Source: Parvularia atlantis (Eukaryota > Opisthokonta > Rotosphaerida). Taken from it: 24,812 nucleotides of DNA. Each line of letters begins with the position of its first letter. Position 1 is the first letter of the stretch. Under the pieces are notes generated by a model. That model saw nothing but the letters and a program-made list of their open reading frames with translations. It made no database searches and was not told the origin of the DNA. The translations under genes and the position numbers were made by a program. The DNA lies in contig CALSCO010001000.1 of NCBI GenBank assembly GCA_943704415.1, positions 1 to 24,812 on the forward strand. The letters run 5' to 3'. Shown here piece by piece: positions 13,703-14,564 of this stretch.

Positions 13703-14564
13703 ATGACCGTCGAGCACGCGGCCGCGGACGAGGAGCAGCAGCAGCAGCAGATGGCGCGCGTGCAGAGCGCCGTGGCGGCCGTGACGCGCCTGCTGCGCGC
13801 GGCCGAGCACCAGGGCTACATCGGCGAGGCCGTGTCGCAGCAGACGCACGCGCTGCAGGCGGCGCAGCTGGCGCGCGAGGCCGGTGCGGCTGTCATTTGA
13901 GGTGCACTGCTTGGCGCGGCTGACGGGAGCCGCGCGCAACGCGCAGGCTACCCCAACGACGTGATCCTCGCCGCGCTGCTGCACGACATCGGCCACCTGT
14001 GTGCGCAGCCGGGCGCGGAGATGATGGGTCAGATGGGCGTCAAGGGCCACGAGAACATCGGCGCGCAGTACCTGCGCCGCATCGGCTTCTCGGACAAGGT
14101 CGCGCAGCTGGTCGAGGCGCACGTCCTCGTCAAGCGCTACCTCACGGCGCGCAACCCGGACTATTACGCCAAGCTGTCGGACGCGAGCAAGACGACGCTC
14201 AAGTACCAGGTGCGCGGCGCACGCGACGTGGGGCGCACGCGTGCTGACGGCGGCGTGGTGGGCGCAGGGCGGCCCGTTGTCGGACGCGGAGGCGACCCAG
14301 TTCGAGCAGGACCCGCTCTTTGACGTCAAGGTCAAGGTGCGCGTTGTCTGTGTCTTGCGCTCGCTCTCGATGTCGCTCTCCGCTGTCGGCTGCGTGAGGC
14401 GTGGCTCACGGCCGCACGGCCGCACGACCGCACGACCGCAGATGCGCACGTGGGACGAGGCCGCCAAGCGCACCGACTGGGCCGTGCCCGCGCTGGACAC
14501 CTACGTCCCACTCATGACGGAGCATCTCGCGGCGCAGCTGCGCGCGTCGCCGCCGTTGACCTGA
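13703..14564 (+). CDS. PhnZ/TmpB-like HD-domain mixed-valent diiron phosphonate oxygenase, 211 aa, 4 exons
   Basis: Exons 13703-13883, 13947-14209, 14268-14336 and 14442-14564 join to 211 residues. PhnZ oxidatively cleaves the C-P bond of 2-amino-1-hydroxyethylphosphonate to give glycine and phosphate; TmpB acts on the trimethylated analogue. Signature segments are GYIGEAVSQQTHALQAA, AALLHDIGHLC, HENIGAQYLRRIGFS, HVLVKRYLTA, DYYAKLSDASKTTLKYQGGP and MRTWDEAAK. Iron ligands known for bacterial PhnZ (His34, His58, Asp59, His80, His104, Asp161) correspond to His49, His73, Asp74, His95, His119 and Asp176, and the gating Tyr24/Glu27 pair to Tyr39/Glu42. The offset is 15 at every position. The start at 13703 gives a short Gln-rich leader (EEQQQQQM); a second ATG follows it. 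The first intron splits the codon for Gly61. No partner dioxygenase (PhnY/TmpA) lies in the window. Substrate within the family cannot be decided from sequence. Confidence 0.92.

Follow-up and report, generated by a model that had tools for sequence, protein, structure and literature searches.

Phosphonates were first found in eukaryotic cells, and data on their breakdown are by far mostly bacterial; a 2023 review calls these compounds even more cryptic in eukaryotes (PMC10574752). HD-domain mixed-valent di-iron oxygenases, to which PhnZ, TmpB and MIOX belong, carry the motif H...HD...H...H...D (PMC8177086). Described members close to the gene reported here are PhnZ from the uncultured bacterium HF130_AEPn_1 (PDB 4MLM, 4MLN, 4N6W and 4N71) and TmpB from Leisingera caerulea (PDB 6NPA). 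Among eukaryotes, PhnZ-type C-P cleavage is described for PhoF of Fonsecaea multimorphosa, in which PhnY and PhnZ are fused into one bifunctional protein (PMC10574752), and foreign PhnW and PhnX transcripts are reported in bdelloid rotifers (PMC3499245).

PbfD proteins, one of them annotated as TIGR03364, form phosphonoacetaldehyde from N-methyl-AEP and from AEP by oxidation, and PhnX then hydrolyses it (PMC10590968). What HpnW (TIGR03364) and the TIGR03276 protein encoded next to PhnX do was left open in a study of Achromobacter, and the function of such an HD protein is unsolved for pseudomonads as well (PMC11203657).

A candidate PhnZ gene with three introns in Parvularia atlantis

The window, by which we mean the whole stretch of DNA that was analysed (24,812 nucleotides), is the whole of contig CALSCO010001000.1, here C243, in the 16.25-Mb, 616-contig assembly of the rotosphaerid Parvularia atlantis. 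The PhnZ-type gene lies at 13703-14564 on the forward strand, as do all of the following features, and its four exons splice to an open product of 211 amino acids. Exon 1 (13703..13883) encodes Met1 to Ala60 and contains Tyr39, Glu42 and His49. It is followed by intron 1 (13884..13946, 63 nt, GTGCGG..GCGCAG), which has an in-frame stop inside. Exon 2 (13947..14209) contains His73-Asp74, His95, His119, Lys123 and Ser141, and intron 2 (14210..14267, 58 nt, GTGCGC..GCGCAG) shifts the frame. Residues 149-171 come from exon 3 (14268..14336), and after intron 3 (14337..14441, 105 nt, GTGCGC..CCGCAG), exon 4 (14442..14564) contributes Arg173, Asp176 and the stop codon TGA (14562-14564). With an E-value limit of 1e-3, the TIGR03276 profile matches the assembly twice, and both matches are exons of this gene.

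All three introns begin with GTGCG and end with CAG, and GTGCG also opens four of the five modelled introns of an unrelated gene (on C148) in the same genome. Intron 3 contains no stop and causes no frame change, so it could be translated as 35 additional residues. We accept it as an intron because of its splice signals, the uninterrupted homologues, and an insert at the same site in the environmental homologue P0003. The latter protein is 66% identical across 72% of the query, and its two read-through inserts (after ..KYQ and after ..KVK) coincide exactly with introns 2 and 3, so that the gene structure is common to a relative. Environmental homologues P0016, P0019 and P0024 start just past the site of intron 1, which fits intron-split genes that may have been read as bacterial ORFs. 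Translation may start at Met1 or at Met17 (13751); Met17 would give 195 amino acids, which is the length of P0001, the nearest homologue among the matches listed (77-80% identical).

Active site and family

The original prediction held that eight PhnZ residues (Tyr24, Glu27, His34, His58, Asp59, His80, His104 and Asp161) map onto this protein with a constant offset of 15 and no gap. This is correct: all eight letters are identical at +15, and the alignment to PhnZ in the PDB is gap-free. The metal motif is formed by His49, His73-Asp74, His95, His119 and Asp176, and the YxxE loop reads Tyr39-Ile-Gly-Glu42. The loop is retained in all 116 listed homologues that cover the site. The further step from a complete site to a PhnZ oxygenase stands only in part. 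The di-iron and YxxE site is indeed complete, but all eight residues are common to TmpB as well, and a complete site alone therefore does not single out PhnZ. Shared as they are by both types, the metal and YxxE residues point to C-P oxygenase chemistry and not to one particular substrate; the PhnZ type is preferred to the TmpB type on the basis of tree position and profile scores.

Among NCBIfam profiles, TIGR03276 (phosphonate degradation HD-domain oxygenase, a hypothetical equivalog with a cut-off of 214.6 bits) gives 206 bits for the window protein (E 3.1e-61, residues 23-200), compared with 147.5 for TmpB and 126 for the GmPhnZ1 type. The 182-residue HF130 PhnZ, used as a control, shows the same pattern (190.7, 143 and 124.4 bits). 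The profile search foreseen in the original prediction thus gives a higher score than that of crystallised PhnZ, yet one below the cut-off, which is also missed by the HF130 PhnZ chain and by all eight other homologues scanned (162-212 bits). Since the crystallised enzyme itself falls below it, this cut-off does not divide enzymes from non-enzymes here. Pfam adds only the generic HD domain above its cut-off.

In a PDB search the window protein matches PhnZ at 3.5e-49 without a gap (46% identity over 182 aligned positions, with all metal and YxxE residues in common) and TmpB at 3.1e-31 (35% identity). Relative to the HF130 PhnZ gene, the window gene has three introns and no recognised PhnY* partner, and its product belongs to a different subclade. 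The AlphaFold model of P0001 (mean pLDDT 97.1) has the same fold as HF130 PhnZ: the fold search returned PhnZ chains at TM 0.86-0.89 (0.88-0.89 for the HAEP-bound ones), TmpB at 0.84 and MIOX at 0.48-0.53, with E-values of 4.7e-12 or better for PhnZ and TmpB and no better than 0.017 for all others. That the window gene is the genome's MIOX was considered and rejected, as a distinct MIOX match above cut-off lies on another contig (C499).

The PhnZ Gln31 position is occupied by Gln in the window protein and in 115 of the 116 listed homologues covering it, whereas Met is found there in 11 of 13 TmpB and TmpA-adjacent proteins, TmpB itself included. At PhnZ position 62, near the HD pair, all 12 named fungal proteins have Gln, and PhnZ, TmpB and the window protein have His. 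Three PhnZ-type proteins (P0005, P0006 and P0111) begin with a hydrophobic stretch that resembles a signal peptide, which would suggest export of a predicted C-P oxygenase.

Phylogeny

Our large tree contains 109 proteins: the window protein, two references, and the 106 sequences that a redundancy filter left of the 120 listed homologues; two further trees use hand-picked subsets of 75 and 42 rows, and all three were made without GmPhnZ1 and PhoF. The 109-protein tree places the window protein inside a 21-row starred set (support 99/94), together with seven unnamed environmental proteins and 12 early-diverging fungi that bear names, among which one unnamed row is interspersed. HF130 PhnZ appears in the next larger starred set (55 rows, 99/97), and 51 rows, from Pseudomonas and others, make up a set apart (92/89) that carries no star. 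The fungal relatives, from Umbelopsis, Syncephalastrum, the kin of Mortierella, Basidiobolus and Calcarisporiella, are 46-51% identical to the window protein and belong to the same eukaryotic clade, although they differ from it at the PhnZ His62 position noted above.

The 75-row tree adds 22 further loci, which are described below. In it, a branch of length 1.04 (100/99) divides TmpB and 11 of the 12 TmpA-adjacent proteins from 63 rows. Within the latter, 57 PhnZ-type rows are separated (99/96) from a six-row group that holds the proteins of loci L160 and L170; L160 is the one TmpA-adjacent protein off the TmpB side, and its group sits between. Protist and fungal proteins form one clade with 97/97 support in the 42-row tree (10 rows) and 91/94 in the 75-row tree. 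The protein P0059, labelled Rmarinus, which from the abbreviation we take to be probably Rhodelphis marinus, lies outside this clade, and a single clade including it was not rejected (AU p 0.396). Placement within the PhnZ/TmpB clade, as the original prediction supposed, is borne out by the 109- and 75-row trees, which further put the window protein inside the PhnZ-type clade and apart from TmpB. At the level of sequence, its assignment as a PhnZ-type HD-domain oxygenase within a eukaryotic group that includes early-diverging fungi is confirmed.

Candidate partner genes in the same genome

A TIGR03364/PbfD-type FAD oxidase is encoded without an intron at C222:68466-69542 on the reverse strand (locus L106). 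The protein scores 390.3 bits against TIGR03364 over positions 1-365, exceeding the cut-off of 285.1, and no match above this cut-off occurs in any of 14 control genomes. The gene lies between eukaryotic genes: on one side is an SRP40_C gene, and on the other are a weak, sub-cut-off DUF4267 match and a PF03619 (OSTalpha/TMEM184) gene. Identity to the 120 listed homologues is 66-74%. Three of these bear names and come from Limobrevibacterium and Paracraurococcus, two genera of the Acetobacteraceae, and from an Acetobacteraceae MAG. The FAD gene therefore looks like a separate, later acquisition, more specifically one that Alphaproteobacteria supplied recently.

A PhnX-like HAD gene lies in pieces at C438:12640-13465 on the reverse strand (locus L107), with at least one intron, which contains an in-frame stop. 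Our hand-made, 3'-incomplete model scores 163.8 bits against TIGR03351, missing the cut-off of 218.9, followed by 111.6 for phosphonatase and 44.1 for the next HAD model. A TIGR03351 copy from a bacterial cluster, with 197.7 bits, also misses the cut-off. Sub-cut-off TIGR03351 matches are found in 13 of the 14 control genomes, so the match alone is not specific, and we base the assignment on its ranking against other HAD models. The model also matches PhnX in the PDB (1.4e-15), and alignment to 1rql places Lys at the PhnX lysine and D-x-A at a second PhnX motif, which we take to be the Schiff-base residue and the nucleophile motif, respectively. The PhnZ-type, FAD and HAD genes are on separate contigs (C243, C222 and C438), and hence show no linkage.

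The original prediction also pointed to a PhnY- or TmpA-type dioxygenase as a possible partner, and none was recognised. PhyH matches occur on four contigs (C127, C574, C363 and C610) and TauD matches on four more (C497, C148, C612 and C164); none of these relatives reaches the PhnY or TmpA cut-off in scans of C148 at full length and of the rest as hand-picked pieces, with a set of models that did not include HF130 PhnY*. The C612 candidate was rejected as TmpA, with gamma-butyrobetaine dioxygenase as its best score (223.8 bits, versus 216.9 for TmpA), and C497 was set aside because trimethyllysine dioxygenase scores best. The C148 gene (L011:509-2076) has six exons and a full-length model of 415 amino acids with a presequence-like N-terminus, and is TmpA/butyrobetaine-dioxygenase-like. 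However, its scores (TmpA 168.2, butyrobetaine 161.0 and TMLD 151.6 bits) are each far below cut-off, and its identity to TmpA-like proteins encoded next to HD genes (11 loci) is 24-30%, compared with 44-74% to the 120 listed members of its own family. We therefore reject it as TmpA, although a related role is conceivable. Bdelloid rotifers, Balamuthia, mucoromycete fungi and Myxococcota are represented among its listed relatives.

This genome appears able both to make carnitine and to use it, as the C612 and C497 proteins resemble butyrobetaine and trimethyllysine dioxygenases, respectively, and the window encodes a carnitine acyltransferase at about 1446-2610. In exon-by-exon searches of this assembly, PEP mutase gave no match at E 1e-3 and PhnW none at E 1e-10.

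Gene neighbourhoods of bacterial relatives

We analysed the loci of the best 80 of 315 relatives, which by title are mostly from Pseudomonas and Bacteroidota and whose HD proteins are about 50-61% identical to the window protein. These belong to the TIGR03276 'PhnHD' systems of pseudomonads, Bacteroidota and Achromobacter, for which, as for the window protein, TIGR03276 is the best-scoring profile; the Achromobacter proteins were compared by their description (PMC11203657). A relative of the TIGR03364-type FAD amine oxidase is present at 53 of the 80 loci in a tblastn search of whole loci with the genome's FAD protein, or at 50 when counted by ORF clustering within 6 kb. The corresponding search with the HAD protein found PhnX-like relatives at 25 loci, and 27 contain a PhnU2-type AEP permease cluster. 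Representatives of the FAD and HAD clusters score 460 bits for TIGR03364 (above cut-off) and the 197.7 bits for TIGR03351 given above. None of the 80 loci matches six 2OG oxygenase queries from the Parvularia genome (E 1e-6), although a PhnY* unlike this genome's PhyH proteins may escape such queries. Like the PhnHD bacteria, the Parvularia genome has TIGR03364 and TIGR03351-like genes. In the bacteria the HD gene is often clustered with FAD genes, and in Bacteroidota also with HAD genes, whereas in the Parvularia genome the three are dispersed, and the window protein groups with fungi and not with these bacterial proteins.

The 22 further loci consist of 20 from 38 places in 37 of 398 genomes, and two from 27 plasmid matches. 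Twelve carry a TmpA-like oxygenase gene, five an FAD gene and four an HAD gene. The closest match in context is L170, where HD, HAD and FAD genes occur together. The L170 FAD protein shares 59% identity with the C222 protein, for which identity to the FAD proteins of the best 80 loci does not exceed 37%; the HD protein of L170 belongs to a different group and is 36-41% identical to the window protein.

Proposed function and alternatives

We consider it probable that this gene encodes a eukaryotic PhnZ-type mixed-valent di-iron oxygenase that likely acts on (R)-2-amino-1-hydroxyethylphosphonate (HAEP), and that probably forms an aminophosphonate set with the PbfD-type and PhnX-like enzymes. We infer activity, substrate and joint function from the comparisons above. 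By analogy with PhnZ, whose mechanism (PMC8177086) underlies the steps proposed here, His49, His73, Asp74, His95, His119 and Asp176 would hold an Fe(II)/Fe(III) pair. The hydroxy-phosphonate would bind one iron and Glu42 (PhnZ Glu27) its amine, while Tyr39 (PhnZ Tyr24) would cap the O2 site and release the second iron once substrate enters. O2 could then bind the freed iron, and a superoxo species would take hydrogen from the substrate. An alpha-hydroxy-aminophosphonate, most likely HAEP, would thus be converted with O2 to phosphate and glycine. The original prediction had allowed glycine betaine as an alternative product. This product is the less likely one, because a long branch with full support separates the window protein from TmpB and 11 of 12 TmpA-adjacent proteins, and because the window protein has Gln where 11 of 13 proteins of that kind have Met.

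The C222 enzyme may convert N-methyl-AEP or AEP to phosphonoacetaldehyde, from which the C438 enzyme would release acetaldehyde and phosphate. HAEP might be taken up with food or made by a so far unrecognised hydroxylase. A food source is possible because (R)-HAEP was first isolated from polysaccharides of an amoeba, Acanthamoeba castellanii (PMC8154272). We more tentatively suggest, at somewhat less than even odds, that this eukaryote lives in part on aminophosphonates through two independent, parallel C-P cleaving routes. HAEP would be degraded oxidatively by the PhnZ-type enzyme, and AEP and N-methyl-AEP by a PbfD/PhnX-like route that does without PhnW. These routes would have been brought together in the nucleus by at least two separate bacterial acquisitions, with the PhnZ gene common to early-diverging fungi. 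In a variant, the TmpA/BBOX-like C148 enzyme would be the missing hydroxylase.

A C-P oxygenase with another substrate is the main alternative, and we think it rather unlikely. Candidates would be hydroxymethylphosphonate (GmPhnZ1-like), trimethyl-HAEP (TmpB-like), three-carbon aminophosphonates (as for PhoF), or N-methyl-HAEP handled with the FAD enzyme. The metal and YxxE residues shared by PhnZ and TmpB would suit such an enzyme, as would the many relatives encoded beside FAD amine oxidases with no 2OG oxygenase match in the best 80 loci, and the TmpA/BBOX-like oxygenase gene on C148. PhoF, moreover, accepts both AEP and 3-aminopropylphosphonate (PMC10574752). However, TIGR03276 outscores the TmpB-type profile by 58 bits and the GmPhnZ1 profile by 80, the residue at the Gln31 position is not the Met typical of TmpB and TmpA-adjacent proteins, and TmpB is set apart in trees from which GmPhnZ1 and PhoF are absent. 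An ordinary HD-domain phosphohydrolase (a nucleotidase or alarmone hydrolase) that merely resembles PhnZ is far less probable. It would explain why Pfam recognises the generic HD domain and nothing else, but not the retention of the YxxE loop with all six metal ligands, the 46% identity to PhnZ, or fold matches of P0001 that are significant for PhnZ and TmpB.

Least credible is bacterial contamination of the assembly. Many listed relatives are bacterial or without a name, as such a source would predict, but contamination is already contradicted by the three introns, of which one contains a stop, another alters the frame and two sit at sites matched in P0003. In gene pieces elsewhere in the window, Pfam recognises eukaryotic neighbours (carnitine acyltransferase, ribosomal protein L38e and SYS1) and also an acyltransferase (PF01553). 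In addition, the GC content of the window (69.5%) resembles that of the C222 (70.4%) and C438 (69.1%) stretches. The claim of the original prediction that this is an intron-bearing nuclear gene is accordingly upheld.

Eukaryotic phosphonate breakdown

The interest of the gene had been seen in phosphonate catabolism being mainly bacterial. As a description of present knowledge this holds, but eukaryotic PhnZ-type chemistry as such has a precedent in the published fungal fusion PhoF (PMC10574752), and the 120 listed homologues include 12 named fungi. PhoF, compared here by description, differs from the window gene, which encodes a stand-alone HD domain. In a full-text literature search that had most subscription journals outside its scope and returned titles and starts of abstracts, we saw neither a stand-alone protist PhnZ nor the three families together in a eukaryote. 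More interesting than the single gene is the hypothetical set of PbfD-type, PhnX-like and PhnZ-type enzymes within a single eukaryote, which makes phosphonate feeding testable in this organism. If the proposed functions are correct, the AEP/HAEP cycle would have a eukaryotic consumer with a defined gene set. Such a set may also give a lead on what the HD protein encoded next to PhnX does in Achromobacter and pseudomonads.

Viral contigs yielded 10 loci, all of them encoding distant HD proteins (23-41% identity) and none a PhnZ-like one. PhnZ-type genes are present in a Parachlamydiaceae MAG (P0042) and on a plasmid of Aquicella lusitana (L118), the latter beside an MFS transporter gene; both groups are known as intracellular partners of protists.
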